Shown here in pieces: positions 12,244 through 19,751 of a DNA stretch of 64,000 nucleotides (positions within the stretch are counted from its first letter, which is position 1; every line of letters starts with the position of its first letter). The notes under the pieces were generated by a model that saw only the letters and a program-made list of their open reading frames with translations, did no database searches and was not told the DNA's origin. A program made the position numbers and the translations under genes. The DNA comes from Actinomycetota bacterium (GTDB lineage: Bacteria > Actinomycetota > Actinomycetes > Mycobacteriales > Micromonosporaceae), in assembly GCA_005885555.1 (NCBI GenBank), contig VAWN01000024.1:1-64000 (forward strand). Direction: 5' to 3'.

Positions 12244-14756
12244 TTACGGCACCGCGCGCAGCCGCCGTACCTCCCCGCCGACCGAGGTCGGCTCGGGCTC
12301 GGTCTGCGCGGCGAACCAGGCCTCCAGCCGGTCGTACGACAGCGGCCGGCTGAAGAAGAAGCCCTGCCCGATGTCGCAGCCGATCTCTTCGAGCAGGGTC
12401 AGCGTCAGTTCGCTCTCCACGCCCTCGGCGACCACGGCCAGCCCGAAGTGCCGGGACAGGTCCACCACGGCCCGCACGATCGCCAGATCACCAGGGTCGG
12501 TCGCCATCCCCTGCACGAACGTCTTGTCGATCTTCACCTCGTCGACCGGCAGCCGGCGCAACTGCGACAGCGACGAGTACCCGGTACCGAAGTCGTCCAC
12601 CGCCAGCCGGATCCCCAGCTCGTGCAGCCGCCGCAGGCTCGGCATCGGCCGCTCGTTCTCGCTGGTCACCCCGGCCTCGCTGATCTCCAGGGTGAGCTGG
12701 TCCGCCGGTACCCCGTACTCCTCCAGCAGCTGCGCCACCCGGTTGGGGAACTCGGGGTCCACCAGCGTCCGCGACGACAGGTTCACCGCGACGTTGAGCG
12801 GCCGGCCCGCGTCGGCCCACTGCCGGCACCGCCGCAGGCCCTCCATGAGCACGGTCTCGGTCAGCCGGCCGAGCTGGCCGGTGTGCTCGGCCACCGCGAC
12901 GAAGTCCTCCGGCGACACCGTGCCGTGGGCGCTGTGCTCCCAACGGGCCAGGCATTCGACGCCGACCAGCTGCCGGCTGCCCAGCGTCACCTTGGGCTGG
13001 AAGGCGACGTCGACCTCGCCGTTCTCCAGCGCCCGGCGCAGGTCGCCGGCCAATCCCAGCCGCCGCGCCGAACGCGACTCCAGCCCGAGGTTGAAGACCT
13101 GCACCGCCGAGGACATCGACTTGGCCGCCTGGTTGGCCACATCGGCCCGCTGCAGCAGCGCGGCCGGTTCCGATCCGTGATCCGGGTGTACCGCGATCCC
13201 CACGGCGGTGTCGACGTCCAGCGTCAGCGAACCGAGCTCCATCGGATCCTGCAGCGACCGGCGCAGCTCCGTCGCGAGTTCGACGGCTTCCTCGGTACCG
13301 GCCATCCGCAGCGTCATCGCGAACTCGTCGCCACCGACCCGGGCGATGAGCGCTGCGGGCGGCGCGAGGCTACGCAGGCGTCGGGCCACCTCGGCGAGCA
13401 GCTTGTCGCCGGCGGCGTGCCCGAGCGACTCGTTGACGTCCCGCAGCCCGGACACGTCGAACTGGACGACGGCGACGACCTCGCCCGGCGCCCGTACCTT
13501 GACCGCCTCTTCGAGGGAGGCAAGCATCCGCCGCCGGTTGGGCAGGCCGGTGAGCGCATCGTGCTGCGCATCGAATCGAGCCGGGAGTTCTCCACCGCGA
13601 CGGCAGCATGCGCCGCAACAGTCTCCAGCAGCCGCACATCGTCGACCCCAAACGTCGCCCGATCGCCAAGCCGGCCAGCAACCTCGAGCGTTCCGATTAC
13701 GGCGGAGCCTGAGCGCATCGGGACCACAATTGCGTCCTTGACTTGCGTTTCCGCTAATTTGACGCGCAAGTCGTCCGTCCCAAGCCGAGGCCCGACTGCG
13801 ACGGTCCCCGCAGTTGCGACCGCATGCTGCCGGAGCGCACCAGGGGTTGCCGAGATGTCGATCAATCCGGTGTCGTCGACGCGCGCAGAGAGCAACGTCT
13901 CCGGATAGCGCCCCTGCACAGGCAGCCACAGCGTCGCCGATTCCGCCTGCAACAACTCCCTGACGCGGCCGAGGAGCACATCCGCCAACGTGCCGTCACT
14001 ACGGGTCTCCGTGATGGCCTTCGTGAGCTCGTAGATCTCTGTCAGCGACTTGTGCTGGCGTAGAAACTGTGCGTACGTTCGATACACCAGGACGACGGCA
14101 GCCGCTATCACGGCGATCAACAACACGGCCCAAGGGCTGCGCCGCACAGCCAGCAACAGGACGAGGCCGATCGTCGTATTCGTTCCGCCGACGACCAGAC
14201 TGGGTGTCGCCGTCCGCAGTACACGTCGCGTAGACATGCCGCCTTGAATCAGCGCAATTACGCCGATGACGGCCGCGACCGTTGAGACGACGGCCGCGCC
14301 AACCGCGCAATAGACGACGACCCAGCTAGAAGGCCGTGTGTCGACCAGTGGACCGAATGCGAAGACTATCAATACGGCGGCGGCGTTGGCCGCCACGATA
14401 TTGGCAAGGTTGAAGGCGAGCGGGACGGTGGTGGTAGGCCGCTGGAGGTGAATCGCCGATAGAGCGACTATTCGGACGATCAGGACTGAGAGAGGGGCGA
14501 GATAGAACAGCGCGAAGACGAGCGGTATCTCGGTCAGAGTGATGCTCAGTCCATGCCGCCGAATCTCGACACTGAGATCCGTCGCCTCGGCCGCCACAAA
14601 CAGAGCCAGGAACAGCAGCGTAAGAGGGAACGGCGAGAGTACGTGGCGTGTTCCGCTAAGTGTCGGCACGACAAGGACGACAGCCAGCGCTGCCAGCGGT
14701 GCAGTGATCAGCCACGCAACGCTCTCACGTCGCCCGACGGTCCGAGGACGAGTCAC
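12244..14756 (-). pseudogene. membrane GAF-GGDEF-EAL cyclic-di-GMP protein, frameshifted and compositionally chimeric
   Basis: From GTG at 14754-14756 the first frame encodes seven or eight membrane helices (residues about 12-225) and a GAF domain ending VETVAAHAAVAVENSRL. It then runs out of frame. Immediately after, in another frame, comes AQHDALTGLPNRRRMLASLE and a GGDEF domain with VGGDEFAM. An EAL domain follows with ECLARW, DDFGTGYSSL, KIDKTFV and AEGVES, ending at TAA 12244-12246. The frame changes at a tandem ATCGA ATCGA (13570-13579). The part upstream of that point is clearly lower in GC and has no GGTACC, while the GGDEF/EAL half has the local signature. The EAL residues look catalytic, though EAL itself reads ECL. 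Either this is a recombined dead gene, or the EAL half is expressed from an internal start. Confidence 0.75.
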
Positions 14757-15281: not shown

Positions 15282-16979
15282 GTGGACGACAAGGCCGGTG
15301 GCGCGCAGGAGCGCTCGGGGCTCGACTGGGCGGCCCGGGTACAGCGCCTGGAGGCCGAGGTCGACGGGCTGCGCCGGGCGATGCGCAGCCGGGCGGTCAT
15401 CGAGCAGGCCAAGGGGTTCCTGTCCGCCGCGCTGAACTGCGGCCTGGACGAGGCGTTCGGGCACCTGGCCCGGCTGTCCCAGCACGAGAACCTGCGGGTG
15501 GCGGAGGTGGCGGCGCGGATCATCGGGTCGGGGGTGCCCGGTACCGCCGAAGAGCCGGACCAGCCGACCCCGGTCGACGCGCGGCTGTTCGATCCGCTGA
15601 CGTACCTGCATGGCGGCCCGATCGGTACCGAAGATGAAGAACCGCCGGAGTCGGTCGATCTGCCGGTACTGCCGGCGGAGACGCGGGTGCGGCTGCAGGC
15701 CGCGGCCGCCGCGGTCCAGTCGGCCGCGACGCTGACCGAGCTCGCCGACCGGCTGCTCGACGAGGGTACCGGCTGGCTCGGCGCCGAAGCCGTGATGATC
15801 TGGACGTCCGAGCCCGACGGCGCGCTGCGGCTGGCGACGTGTGCCGGGCTCGCGCCGCAGGTCGCCAGCGACTGGCAGCGGATACCCTCGCGGGTCCGGG
15901 CGCCGGTACGCGACGCGATCTCGAAGGACGAGCCGGTATGGCTCGACGGGCGGCGACGGTACGACTACACGATCATGCGGGAGGGGTCGGCCGCGGCGAG
16001 CCTTCCGCTGCGCTACGGCGGCCGGCCGTTCGCCGGGCTCGTCGTCCTGTGGGAGGGACACCACACGTACCCGGACACCGAGCGCCGGTACCTCACCGGG
16101 CTCGCCGCGCTGGCCGGACGGCGGTTCCGCAAGCTGGCCCGGTCGGCGGACGTCGGTACGCCACCGGGGCACTGGCTGCAGGGGATGCTGGACGCGCTGC
16201 CGGTCGCCACGCTGTTACTCGCGCCGCTGCGGGACCAGGGCACGATCATCGACTTCGTCATCGACTACGCCAGCCCGCTCGCCGGGGAACCGGAGCAGCA
16301 GGTACCGCCGCAGCTGACCGGGCGCCGGTTGCTGGACGTGCGCCCACAGCTGGCCAACACCGGGGTCTTCGAGGCGTACCGGCAGGTCGCGCTCGCCGGC
16401 GGTACCTGGCGGCGGTCCGCGCAGGCGGAGACGGTACTCGTCGACGGCACCCCGGAGCAGCGGATCATCAGCCGGTCGGCGGTGCGGCTCGGCGAAGGGC
16501 TGCTGGTCTCCTGGCGGATCCACGACGCCGAGGCGCAGCTGACCCGGGTCGGCCGGGTGGAGGACCTGGCCAGCGTCGGGTACCTGGAATGGGATCTGCT
16601 GTCGGACAGCCTGTACTGGTCTCCCGGTACCTATAAAATCTTCGACCGCAGCCCGCAGCGTGGCCCGGTGACCCTCGACCACCTGCCGGAGCACGTCGTA
16701 CCCGAGGACCTGCCGGCCCTGCAGAGCAACCTGCGCCAGGTGCTGGAGGAGCACGAGCCGGCCGAGCTGGTGCTGCGGTTGCGGGTCGGCGGCGGGGAGC
16801 GGTTGGTCCGGGCGGTTTTCCGGCCGGTACCCGACGAGCACGGCGACCTCGTCGGCCTCTACGGCGTCGTGCAGGACCTCAGCGAGCTGCAACGGCGCAG
16901 CGAGGCGCAGCGCCGCAGCGAGCACGCCGCGAAGATCCGCCGGGTGCACGGCGCCGTTTCACCGAGGCGGGACTGGTGA
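15282..16979 (+). CDS. ANTAR-GAF-PAS signalling protein
   Basis: 565 residues from GTG. Near residues 30-85 is an ANTAR-like segment (RAVIEQAKGFLSAALNCG, then DEAFGHLARLSQHENLRVAE); such domains bind paired RNA hairpins to antiterminate transcription. A GAF domain (about 115-255) and two PAS-like regions (about 275-385 and 425-535) follow. The last is of the PAS-fold-3 type (GYLEWDLLSDSLYWSPGTYK). The protein ends soon after SELQRRSEAQRRSE, where relatives often carry a kinase, phosphatase or GGDEF output domain, so the RNA-binding end may be the only output. The last four bases overlap the STAS gene. Confidence 0.8.
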   Translation: MDDKAGGAQERSGLDWAARVQRLEAEVDGLRRAMRSRAVIEQAKGFLSAALNCGLDEAFGHLARLSQHENLRVAEVAARIIGSGVPGTAEEPDQPTPVDARLFDPLTYLHGGPIGTEDEEPPESVDLPVLPAETRVRLQAAAAAVQSAATLTELADRLLDEGTGWLGAEAVMIWTSEPDGALRLATCAGLAPQVASDWQRIPSRVRAPVRDAISKDEPVWLDGRRRYDYTIMREGSAAASLPLRYGGRPFAGLVVLWEGHHTYPDTERRYLTGLAALAGRRFRKLARSADVGTPPGHWLQGMLDALPVATLLLAPLRDQGTIIDFVIDYASPLAGEPEQQVPPQLTGRRLLDVRPQLANTGVFEAYRQVALAGGTWRRSAQAETVLVDGTPEQRIISRSAVRLGEGLLVSWRIHDAEAQLTRVGRVEDLASVGYLEWDLLSDSLYWSPGTYKIFDRSPQRGPVTLDHLPEHVVPEDLPALQSNLRQVLEEHEPAELVLRLRVGGGERLVRAVFRPVPDEHGDLVGLYGVVQDLSELQRRSEAQRRSEHAAKIRRVHGAVSPRRDW

Positions 16980-17350
16980 CCGGCTTACCGATCCCGAACC
17001 CGCCGGCAGACCGTATCGTGCAGGGTATGGATCGACATTCGTTGGCATTCCGGGCGAACCGCGAGGCCGATGAGGCGTCCCTCGCCGTTGCCGGCGAGAT
17101 CGACATGTTCACCGCGGAGAGCCTGTACCAGCAGGCCCGGCGCCTGGTCGACACCTCGGTGTCCCGGCTGGTCCTCGACCTGGGCGAGGTGACGTTCTGC
17201 GACTCGCTCGGGGTGGCCGCGCTGGTGCGCATCTACAAGTACGGAGCGGCGGTGGACTGCCGGCTGCGGCTGACCAACCTGCGCCAGCACGTCGCGCACA
17301 TCCTGCAGATCAGCGGACTTGACCAGGTGTTCGAGGTGGAACTGGCCTGA
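16976..17350 (+). CDS. STAS-domain anti-sigma factor antagonist
   Basis: 124 residues (107 from the alternative ATG at 17027). The STAS core VLDLGEVTFCDSLGVAALV places the phosphorylatable serine at Ser77. Such proteins release a sigma factor by binding an anti-sigma kinase when unphosphorylated. The GTG start overlaps the stop of the ANTAR-GAF-PAS gene (GTGA), so the two are coupled. No anti-sigma kinase or sigma gene is next to it, so the partner lies elsewhere. Confidence 0.85.
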   Translation: MTGLPIPNPPADRIVQGMDRHSLAFRANREADEASLAVAGEIDMFTAESLYQQARRLVDTSVSRLVLDLGEVTFCDSLGVAALVRIYKYGAAVDCRLRLTNLRQHVAHILQISGLDQVFEVELA

Positions 17351-17604
17351 GGCCGAGGTACCGCGCCAGCAGCAGTTTCAACTCCGCCGGTACCGCCGGG
17401 TCGCCGTCCGGGTCGTGGTGACACGAGCCGTTGACCTTCGAAGACCCGGGCACCGCGGATCGCGAACGAGTTCGGCGGGGCGGTCGGGCGGCCCGGGGTG
17501 GTGCAGCCGGCGGCGACCGCGGCGGCCGCGCCGGCAACGAGTACCGTCCGACGGCGTATCGGCGTGTTTTCGCTGGTAGATCCTGTTTCTGCCGGGCACT
17601 GCAT
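17351..17604 (-). pseudogene. decayed lipoprotein-like reading frame
   Basis: A gap of about 400 bases between the STAS and DUF805 genes contains two out-of-frame halves on the minus strand. The ATG at 17602-17604 opens with PIRRRTVLVAGAAAAVAAGC, a twin-arginine/lipobox-like signal, and continues TTPGRPTAPPNSFAIRGARV. Around 17440 the plausible coding frame shifts to KVNGSCHHDPDGDPAVPAEL and then KLLLARYLGL, running to the end of the STAS gene. Codon use supports both halves, but no single frame joins them. I read it as an internally deleted remnant of a secreted protein of unknown type. It may instead be a chance pattern. Confidence 0.4.
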
Positions 17605-17754
17605 GATAGTCGGCTTTCCTATTGCCGGTTCGGCTCGGAAGGGATACCTGCCGGGTCAGGGTGCTTGACCTTGGGGTACCCGCGCACCTACCTTGCAACT
17701 CCTCGCCTGATCCACGATGGAGCAGGCTCAGCGGAGGGCTCTCGGAGGAGCATC

Positions 17755-18111
17755 GTGAACTGGTACTTGGCGGTGCTGAAGAACTACGCCGGTTTCACCG
17801 GTCGCGCTCGGCGCACGGAATACTGGATGTTTGCACTGTTCAACTTCGTGATCACCATTGTTCTGGAGATCATCGGAGTGCTGATCCACACGCAGATCAT
17901 CACCTACCTGTACACCCTGGCGGTACTCATCCCGTCGCTGGCGGTAGGGGCACGCCGCCTACACGACACGGGGCGCTCGGGGTGGTGGCTGCTGATCGGG
18001 CTGATCCCGATCGTGGGCACGATCATCCTGATCGTCTTCTTCGCCACGGAAGGGCAGCCGGGCAACAACCAGCACGGGCCGAACCCCAAGCTGGCGCCGC
18101 AGCCGGCCTGA
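17755..18111 (+). CDS. DUF805 family membrane protein
   Basis: 118 residues from GTG (17755-17757), with GGAGGAG five bases upstream, which decides the start. It begins VNWYLAVLKNYAGFTGRARR and has the family's RRTEYWMF and ARRLHDTGRSGWWLL motifs. There are three membrane segments (about 25-45, 48-68, 82-102) and a hydrophilic tail GQPGNNQHGPNPK. DUF805 proteins are widespread small inner-membrane proteins without a known activity. A strong hairpin follows 15 bases after the stop. Confidence 0.9.
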   Translation: MNWYLAVLKNYAGFTGRARRTEYWMFALFNFVITIVLEIIGVLIHTQIITYLYTLAVLIPSLAVGARRLHDTGRSGWWLLIGLIPIVGTIILIVFFATEGQPGNNQHGPNPKLAPQPA

Positions 18112-18126
18112 GGCACTGACGCAGGC

Positions 18127-18154
18127 GGCCCCCGTACCGGCTGGTGCGGGGGCC
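18127..18154. terminator. hairpin after DUF805 gene / after tRNA-Tyr remnant
   Basis: GGCCCCCG (18127-18134) and CGGGGGCC (18147-18154) form a perfect 8-bp stem. It resembles the hairpin following tRNA-Tyr at 19011-19049 in both stem and position, which supports duplication of the tRNA-Tyr 3' half together with its terminator. Confidence 0.65.
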
Positions 18155-18159
18155 ATCTG

Positions 18160-18206
18160 CTCTCCAACGTCGGGTCGAGGATTCGGACCGGGGTGGCTTT
18201 GCCGGT
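18160..18206 (-). repeat. decayed copy of tRNA-Tyr 3' half
   Basis: The plus-strand segment TCTGCTCTCCAACGTCGGGT and CGAGGATTCGGACC match TCTGCCCTCCATGTGGCGGG and TCAAGGATTCGAACC next to and inside tRNA-Tyr at 19050-19083, with few changes. The match covers the T arm and 3' acceptor side and fades after the variable arm. No anticodon arm remains. It has the same orientation as tRNA-Tyr and lies on its 3' side about 0.9 kb away, the geometry of an attachment-site duplication or of a decayed tandem tRNA copy. Confidence 0.7.
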
Positions 18207-18230
18207 CCCGCGATCACTCCACTCGGACCC

Positions 18231-18776
18231 TCAGTTGACTTTGAATACGAACACGCTGCGATCGAGGTAGGTCGCCGGGTCGTGCCAGGTCGACTGGAAG
18301 AGGAAGGAGTTGCCGAGGTAATTGGTCTGCTCCACCGGTGGGATCGGGACCGTGAAATCGAGCTGCTCGGTGGTACCCGCCTTGATCGTGAGTCCGGCGA
18401 AATCCGGCTGGGTCAGCCGGACGAACCGGTCGTCCACCGCGGTGACCGCTTCGCTGACGTCCGGGGCGATGTTCGCCGGTCCCACGAAAAGATGGACGAA
18501 CAGCCAGACGTAGTCGGTCGGGTCAGGGTTGCTGATCCCCACGCTGTAGGTCAGATTGCCACCTACCGGCGCGCCGCCGCTCCAGCCCTGGTACACGATC
18601 ATCGGGCTGTTGGCGCGCTTGAGCTTGCGCTGGAGTTGTTCGGGTGTGACCGCGGTGAACAGGTCACCCCGGCGCTCGGCGTCGCGCCTGCGCCCCTCAA
18701 TGGTTTCGGCGACGCTCTTGATGAAGGTCGCCTGTCGGTCCGCGAAATCGGACACAGCATGCTGGAACTCGGCCAT
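18231..18776 (-). CDS. conserved-looking hypothetical protein between tRNA-Tyr and its partial copy
   Basis: 181 residues; I recognise no family. Residues 1-55 are charged and probably helical (MAEFQHAVSDFADRQATFIK, later EQLQRKLKRANSPM). The rest looks like an all-beta fold: YQGWSGGAPVGGNLTYSVGI, then DYVWLFVHLFVGPANI, and LFQSTWHDPATYLDRSVFVF near the end. No signal peptide, membrane helix or cysteine cluster is seen. It contains the GGTACC signature, so it is not obviously foreign. It is the only convincing gene in the interval bounded by tRNA-Tyr and the tRNA remnant. Confidence 0.65.
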   Translation of the reverse strand: MAEFQHAVSDFADRQATFIKSVAETIEGRRRDAERRGDLFTAVTPEQLQRKLKRANSPMIVYQGWSGGAPVGGNLTYSVGISNPDPTDYVWLFVHLFVGPANIAPDVSEAVTAVDDRFVRLTQPDFAGLTIKAGTTEQLDFTVPIPPVEQTNYLGNSFLFQSTWHDPATYLDRSVFVFKVN

Positions 18777-19010
18777 CTTTGGCCTCCCACCTGTGACGCC
18801 CGTTCCGGGCTGGCCAGTGCCGTATGGCTAGACCTACGCCGCTTGTCCACCAAACGCCAGCAGTGTGTCCTTGGTCTGACTGGCTCTGCGTGCACAGACT
18901 GAAGCGGCCCGCCCGATGACAGGAACCGCCGAAGATCAACCGCCGACACGTATCCGACGCGACCGGTGGGATCGACCGGTTCCGGGCGGCACCCGGTGGG
19001 ACAGATGCGG

Positions 19011-19049
19011 ACGGCCCCCGTACGGGCGTTTCGCTGGTACGGGGGCCGT
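19011..19049 (-). terminator. tRNA-Tyr terminator
   Basis: ACGGCCCCCGTAC (19011-19023) and GTACGGGGGCCGT (19037-19049) are perfect 13-base arms with a 13-base loop. They begin 13 bases after the tRNA-Tyr 3' end. There is no T run. A shorter version of the same hairpin is at 18127-18154. Confidence 0.75.
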
Positions 19050-19061
19050 CTGCCCTCCATG

Positions 19062-19142
19062 TGGCGGGTCAAGGATTCGAACCTTGGTAGCTTTCGCGAC
19101 GGATTTACAGTCCGCTCCCATTGGCCGCTCGGGCAACCCGCC
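19062..19142 (-). tRNA. tRNA-Tyr (GTA)
   Basis: An 81-base class II tRNA with a long variable arm. The acceptor GGCGGGT pairs with ACCCGCC, the discriminator is A, the anticodon is GTA in GGACTGTAAATCC, and the T arm is AGGTTCGAATCCT. CCA is not encoded. Part of its 3' half is repeated, in decayed form, at 18160-18206. Confidence 0.97.
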
Positions 19143-19259: not shown

Positions 19260-19751
19260 GTGGCAGACCCATCGTTCGACATCGTCAGCAAAGTCGACCG
19301 ACAGGAGCTGGACAACGCGGTCAACCAGGCCGCCAAGGAGCTGTCCACGAGGTTCGACTTCCGTGGTACCGGGGCGCAGATCAGCCATGGCAGCGAGAAC
19401 GCGGTGACCATCCAGGCGGACAGCGAGTCCCGGGCGCGGGCGGCCCTGGAGGTCTTCAAGGAGAAGCTGGTCAAGCGCAACATCTCGCTCAAGGCGCTGG
19501 ACGCCGGTGAACCGAAGGTGTCCGGCAAGGTACACCGGATCGAGTGCAAGATCATTCAGGGCATCGACTCGGACAAGGCCAAGCAGATCAGCAAGAAGAT
19601 CCGGGACGAGGGGCCGCGCGGCGTCCAGGCGCAGATCCAGGGCGACCAGCTGCGGGTCAGCGGCAAGAAGAAGGACGACCTGCAGAGCGTGATCGCGCTG
19701 CTGAAGCAGGCGGACTTCGGGGTCGCGCTGCAGTTCATCAACTACCGCTAG
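19260..19751 (+). CDS. yajQ: YajQ-family (DUF520) nucleotide-binding protein
   Basis: 163 residues from GTG (19260-19262) after GGGAGAAG. The family ends are typical: [20 protein letters not shown] at the start, and [20 protein letters not shown] with [12 protein letters not shown] at the end. Two ferredoxin-like domains are expected. Some members bind cyclic di-GMP and act as co-regulators, others bind tRNA or ATP. Cyclic-di-GMP genes a few kilobases away fit the first role, but that is inference. Confidence 0.93.

Follow-up and report, generated by a model that had tools for sequence, protein, structure and literature searches.

Probable remains of an integrative element at the tRNA-Tyr gene of a Micromonosporaceae genome

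The DNA analysed here, referred to as the window, is a stretch of 64,000 nucleotides from a 6.7-Mb draft genome of the Micromonosporaceae. It contains a gene for tRNA-Tyr that is adjoined by yajQ (DUF520; 19260-19751). On the 3' side of the tRNA gene lie its terminator hairpin, a short direct repeat and a single protein gene, followed by a degenerate piece of tRNA-Tyr and a second hairpin (Table 1).

Table 1. Features of the tRNA-Tyr locus in the window; attL, attR and cargo are used in the sense of the interpretation proposed in the text, and L numbers denote loci in other genomes.
Feature	Position	Strand	Remarks
Terminator copy, attR, hairpin still strong	about 18121..18160	-	fold -32.5 kcal/mol, z -3.3, for 18110-18165
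Decayed copy of tRNA-Tyr 3' end, attR remnant	18167..18200	-	26/34 nt identical
Cargo gene, 181 aa	18231..18776	-	between attR copy and tRNA-Tyr
attL inner flank	18941..19005		82, 78, 72 and 71% identical to L082, L075, L059 and L074
11-bp-spaced direct repeat (CCGACACG / CCGACGCG), candidate arm-type site	18943..18961		7/8 identical, 118 nt from tRNA
tRNA-Tyr terminator hairpin, attL	about 19007..19053	-	inverted repeat; fold -40.6 kcal/mol for 18996-19060
tRNA-Tyr (GTA), attachment site, intact at attL	19061..19142	-	ARAGORN; adjoins yajQ in 40/40 relatives

The tRNA-Tyr region was aligned with the distant piece, as the first-pass annotation of this DNA had proposed. The copy extends in full over 18115-18200 and matches the terminator and the 3' end of tRNA-Tyr: hairpin, spacer copy and 34 nt of the tRNA 3' end follow one another in the same order and orientation as in the original, and the stem core GGCCCCCGTAC is common to both hairpins. 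Local alignment of 19000-19142 against 18110-18250 gave a score of 42, compared to 17 at most for 1,792 control stretches from both strands of the rest of the window. The tRNA part of the copy alone scored 20, with controls reaching no more than 14 (the same number of stretches) and shuffles no more than 16 (n=2,000); the three other tRNAs in the window score 8. In a search of the whole genome the sole strong second match was the tRNA-Tyr locus (E 2.5e-10), the next best match having an E value of 0.005. The annotation had noticed that the T-arm and acceptor part of tRNA-Tyr and a similar hairpin recur about 0.9 kb away; the distance is 0.92 kb, on the 3' side of the tRNA and in the same orientation, and the duplication is confirmed as real and far above chance.

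The copied tRNA part has decayed. Its T-stem shows two mismatches in five pairs (counted by eye), and a profile built from 40 relatives recovers the copy weakly (E 0.031); the copy is closer to its own tRNA and terminator than to the family consensus. It stops before the anticodon loop, 16 nt short of the end of the motif TTTACAG, so that the point of recombination is not visible. Both borders carry the direct repeat of a tRNA 3' end that is typical of an AICE; the copy resembles those of the five elements described below, except that the final 16 nt of its tRNA core can no longer be recognised. The hairpin of the copy is located between two convergent genes, a DUF805 gene and the 181-residue cargo gene.

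The same locus was then compared across relatives. yajQ is present in 57 of the 61 family genomes searched, and tRNA-Tyr lies beside it at all 30 loci of a first set, the window's own being counted in both numbers. A second set of 40 relatives gave the same picture, each with tRNA-Tyr beside yajQ in one intact copy over the stretch examined. A complete second tRNA-Tyr gene, as a tandem array would contain, was found at none of these 40 loci. The annotation had named an old tandem tRNA array, with the gene present in all relatives, as the alternative that would speak against an element; such a result was not observed, each of the 40 loci having a single tRNA-Tyr and the other 149 family genomes having no convincing copy of the gene. 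Of the 40 relatives, 20 have a GAF-domain gene in window-like orientation 3' of tRNA-Tyr within the stretch examined (left out of this count are L071, where the match is weak, and two loci that have the gene on the other side), and genes for tRNA-Trp, tRNA-Met and tRNA-Thr are also present 3' of tRNA-Tyr in 16 of the 40. The two shortest loci, L069 and L055, have about 0.8 and 0.9 kb between the GAF-domain gene and yajQ; in the window this distance is 4.5 kb (from the ORF coordinates), and in relatives it reaches up to about 8.5 kb. The region 3' of tRNA-Tyr is thus variable. The one genome of the same genus that was examined is 77% complete and no yajQ was found in it; therefore no close empty site is visible.

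Integrase-like sequence was detected at 14 of the 40 loci by tblastn with three queries. Two of these matches are doubtful, one being short and antisense (L052) and the other antisense and more than 8 kb off (L065). At L051, L063, L073, L074 and L082 the alignments are to stop-free frames, and 133 to 259 nt separate their ends from the tRNA. For five of the 14 loci, all with stop-free integrase frames and belonging to five genomes from four genera, a stretch of 40 kb was examined. At all five, a far copy of the tRNA half together with all or part of the terminator closes the element, at a distance from the tRNA of 16.9 kb (L082), 12.6 kb (L074), 16.3 kb (L051), 13.3 kb (L063) and 18.0 kb (L075). 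The match of the far copy ends 1 to 5 nt past TTTACAG in four of these elements and 17 nt past it in the fifth. In the genome of L063 (G023), ARAGORN calls a second tRNA 13.3 kb away at this far copy, the 3' half of which matches tRNA-Tyr whereas the 5' half does not. The integrases at the site carry PF00589, which in the L082 element scores 25.0 bits, below the cut-off of 27.1. Further modules were examined in the L082 element only, which has DUF3631, Prim-Pol and FtsK/SpoIIIE domains; according to the accessible part of the source, modules of these types are among those that define AICEs (PMC3218068). A search of 50,697 phage records for relatives of the integrase returned nothing at an E value of 1e-5.

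Partial copies, consisting of the 3' half of tRNA-Tyr and the terminator, were found in the variable stretch among the 40 relatives at L054, L059, L064, L067 and L078 (two copies) and, weakly, at L052; weaker self-matches at other loci (E 0.004 or worse) were excluded. At L054, L059, L064 and for one of the L078 copies the match breaks right after the TTTACAG of the anticodon loop, L078 differing by one base. By sequence comparison, the tRNA-Tyr/yajQ locus is a repeated landing site in related bacteria. In all five elements examined the terminator is copied in whole or in part. Such copying is therefore normal, and the reservation about an element that the annotation had drawn from it falls away.

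Some of these loci have features of their own. At L059 the tRNA is adjoined by a fragment of an integrase, and another integrase lies at a greater distance; L078 has the two partial copies already mentioned. The interval to the partial copy in L054 is 0.9 kb, with no integrase detected (about -900 to -200 from tRNA-Tyr), and the same sequence borders the outer side of the near and of the far terminator. In L084, the terminator region is repeated twice in tandem with 92-94% identity at 110-275 nt from tRNA-Tyr, without a tRNA piece.

A direct repeat with a spacing of 11 lies about 117 nt from the tRNA at 16 of the 40 loci when an identity of at least 7/8 is required, while other spacings from 6 to 19 yielded 0 or 1 locus each. 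Along the flank, the count of 16 at about -117 stands against two or fewer in any other 10-nt step scanned. With a threshold of 6/8 the repeat is present at 20 loci, including all 14 with integrase sequence, so that integrase occurs at 14/20 loci with the repeat and at 0/20 without it (Fisher 3e-6, or 4.5e-5 minus the two doubtful matches; kinship ignored); at 7/8 the repeat is kept by 12 of the 14 integrase loci (p 2e-5; kinship ignored). Because place and spacing of the repeat had been discovered on the same 40 loci as were tested, a held-out set of 16 loci was run. tRNA-Tyr was called in 14 of them and in 2 it was not; the repeat was present in 4 of the 14, the sole integrase locus among them, and one locus had 170 nt left of the tRNA. 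Mycobacteriophage integrases have paired 11-bp arm-type sites, and the letters of the sites and the N-terminal residues of the integrase are thought to co-vary, as stated in the accessible part of the source (PMC3203893). A repeat at this place and with this spacing is present in the window as a candidate arm-type site.

The repeat occurs without a detected integrase at six of the 40 loci (L045, L049, L050, L058, L062 and L076; L049 and L062 are short contig ends) and at the held-out loci L104, L107 and L112. All of these are candidates for fossils of the same kind. The sequence between repeat and terminator in the window also resembles that of particular relatives. Its best matches are four loci, L082, L075, L059 and L074, the integrases of which form one subfamily and are 78-95% identical to each other; next comes L062, the short contig end, with 68%. 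L050, L064, L058 and a few others match slightly above shuffles and most loci do not, L050, where no integrase was found, reaching 20 vs 13 in shuffles. This inner flank was probably left by the lost element, and the likeness suggests that the lost integrase would have belonged to the subfamily of these four loci.

A site-specific integrase, which an AICE encodes, was not found within 18115-19142, and neither the sequence left of the repeat nor that between the cargo gene and the repeat yielded a remnant of an integrase. A relative of the L074 integrase was not found in the window's genome, while all five control genomes gave a match in the same search; the genome has 18 other PF00589 matches. 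Genes for replication (RepSA, RepAM, Prim-Pol) and FtsK/SpoIIIE transfer genes were not found either, the 0.9-kb interval holding one likely gene. Since the interval contains no integrase, it is a remnant and not an AICE, and since none of its sequence was detected left of the repeat, the missing core is a part of the element that we infer.

Among known systems, SLP1 (Gi11), an AICE of Streptomyces coelicolor, resembles the window in its tRNA-Tyr target, in the tRNA regenerated at attL and in the long repeat at attR, which for SLP1 is a direct repeat of 112 bp; it also has a gene near attR (sco4631), as the window has its cargo gene (all according to the accessible part of PMC3009677). In contrast to SLP1, the copy in the window is decayed and int, rep and tra genes are lacking; the geometry of the two agrees, though in the window it is eroded. 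The AICE-like elements of the relatives (L082, L074, L075, L051 and L063) have the same tRNA, att geometry and place of the repeat as the window, and those at L082, L075 and L074 share its inner flank; however, they span 12.6-18.0 kb with an intact integrase frame, compared to 0.9 kb without an integrase. A plasmid of Streptomyces sp. NBC_00859 (NZ_CP108827.1, 13.5 kb) encodes an integrase 46.5% identical to that of L074 and also has helix-turn-helix, DUF3631, primase/polymerase, FtsK/SpoIIIE and spdB genes. It differs in being a circular plasmid record from another family, in which a simple word search with the T-arm found no tRNA piece.

We interpret 18115-19142 as the remains of an AICE-type integrative element with SLP1-like geometry, of which only attL, attR and a single cargo gene are left, and put the probability of this reading at about 0.88. 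It draws on the duplication, the attL-type flank resembling that of integrase loci, the repeat that resembles an arm site, the lack of any integrase and the equivalent elements in relatives, and these observations support the proposal of the annotation that an element had used the tRNA-Tyr 3' end and then lost its integrase. A tyrosine integrase would have joined the attP of the element to the 3' half of tRNA-Tyr. At attL, the yajQ end, the tRNA would have been left intact because the element supplied a 3' half of the tRNA together with a terminator and an arm site of its own. At attR, the far end, the chromosome's old 3' half and terminator would have been retained, the tRNA part decaying thereafter. 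Later deletion would have removed the integrase, excisionase, replication and transfer genes and left one cargo gene close to attR. The hairpin at attR probably survived because it is able to stop transcription of the convergent DUF805 and cargo genes. Both ends would go back to one event, with the losses in the order given.

Other histories could produce a similar arrangement. A variant of the same explanation assumes insertions of two different elements, the older of which left the attR remnant, and the younger, now lost, the attL flank. Stacked insertions do occur in relatives, as the two partial copies at L078 and the integrase fragment with a second integrase at L059 illustrate; against this, the window has just a single partial copy, with a close resemblance between its two terminators, and we regard two insertions as rather unlikely. 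A segmental or tandem duplication of tRNA-Tyr and terminator, followed by gene insertion and decay of one copy, would need no integrase and had been put forward by the annotation as the alternative. The unusual stem CCCCCGTAC and most of the following spacer are common to both terminators, a likeness that a local duplication would lead one to expect as well, and when a global alignment is forced, scattered matches turn up across the 5' half of the tRNA. However, the locally aligned stretch breaks off within the tRNA at one end and stops with the terminator at the other, the decayed copy has no counterpart of the arm repeat and inner flank that accompany the intact one, the 40 relatives have one tRNA-Tyr per locus over the stretch examined, and copies of similar extent close elements at the tRNA-Tyr/yajQ locus. 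Such a duplication is therefore quite improbable. Finally, two ordinary look-alike terminators might have come to lie beside a few tRNA-like bases by chance. GC-rich hairpins are common, and a single hairpin arm by itself has a match elsewhere in the genome (E 0.005), but none of the 1,792 controls came near a score of 42 and the tRNA part alone lies above all controls, which leaves coincidence with practically no weight.

If 18115-19142 is the remnant of an element, the cargo gene would have arrived with it at tRNA-Tyr. Its GC content is 63.6%, whereas the window as a whole has 71.2%; a value as low as this is reached by 3.3% of stretches of equal size. The description of the interval as a single gene of no recognised family stood up: Pfam, NCBIfam, PADLOC and PHROGs gave nothing above cut-off for the protein, with one sub-threshold NCBIfam match (E 0.03). 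The best relative, 53-54% identical, is encoded at L044 in a metagenome assembly of the Acidobacteriota. A search of 297 genomes from the phylum of that assembly added two further relatives with 38% identity, so that three of the 297, the L044 assembly included, match the protein. In all searches made, convincing relatives are confined to these three genomes; by eye, their neighbouring genes have none in common over the stretches examined. The only convincing match in 150 family genomes and 396 phylum genomes was the window's own gene, and relatives were absent from the viral contigs, plasmids and phages searched.

There were also some weaker matches. Four from one genus of the family were judged unrelated by eye, two of them (L010 and L012) lying within proteins of about 800 aa that have a short motif alone in common with the cargo protein. 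The phylum search gave one weak match (G159, E 8.8e-4). A 35-nt match inside the cargo gene in the same-genus genome (E 6.3e-5) extends over 11 residues with an E value of 0.1 and was taken as chance.

A sequence search of the PDB with the cargo protein returned nothing significant. Models of the protein, which are of low confidence (pLDDT 61-62), have a helix at the N terminus and a beta sandwich of Ig-like type; Foldseek found no match for them at E <= 0.001, and VIA-align found generic beta-sandwich matches alone (Z up to 8.2). Because the models are of low confidence and the matches generic, we draw no function from the structure. Our guess is that the protein might be a binding module carried as cargo.

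The class of element is already well known; what is added here is the fossil and a repeated landing site with a repeat footprint. It illustrates how a mobile element can be worn down until two scars and a single gene are left. A wider reading, for which we consider the case evenly balanced as a whole, combines several points: tRNA-Tyr/yajQ would be a family-wide landing site at which the 11-bp-spaced repeat about 117 nt from the tRNA outlives the element, the letters of the repeat would change together with the integrase subfamily, and the cargo gene would represent a new protein family common to this actinomycete and the Acidobacteriota. If this is true, the fossil footprint reveals past occupants and their type of integrase after all mobility genes have been lost, as in the window. 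Spacing and place of the repeat would be a signature by which such fossils can be recognised, and might assign an integrase subfamily without the integrase. The cargo would then be a conserved protein family that may have moved between phyla. Among the papers listed from the open literature, a body of text to which subscription journals mostly do not belong, none has a title or opening of an abstract describing this tRNA-Tyr locus.

Two observations concern the DNA beyond attR. Genes for ANTAR/GAF/PAS, STAS and DUF805 proteins lie at 15282-18111, between the GAF-domain gene and attR. The ANTAR/GAF, STAS and DUF805 genes have no match in the stretches of the 40 relatives, apart from a weak STAS match 8 kb off in L071, and may be older insertions. 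The GAF-domain gene itself (12247-14744), the counterparts of which encode 842-844 aa in L064 and L052, shows a change of frame near 13566-13578, which reflects either a broken gene or a sequencing error.
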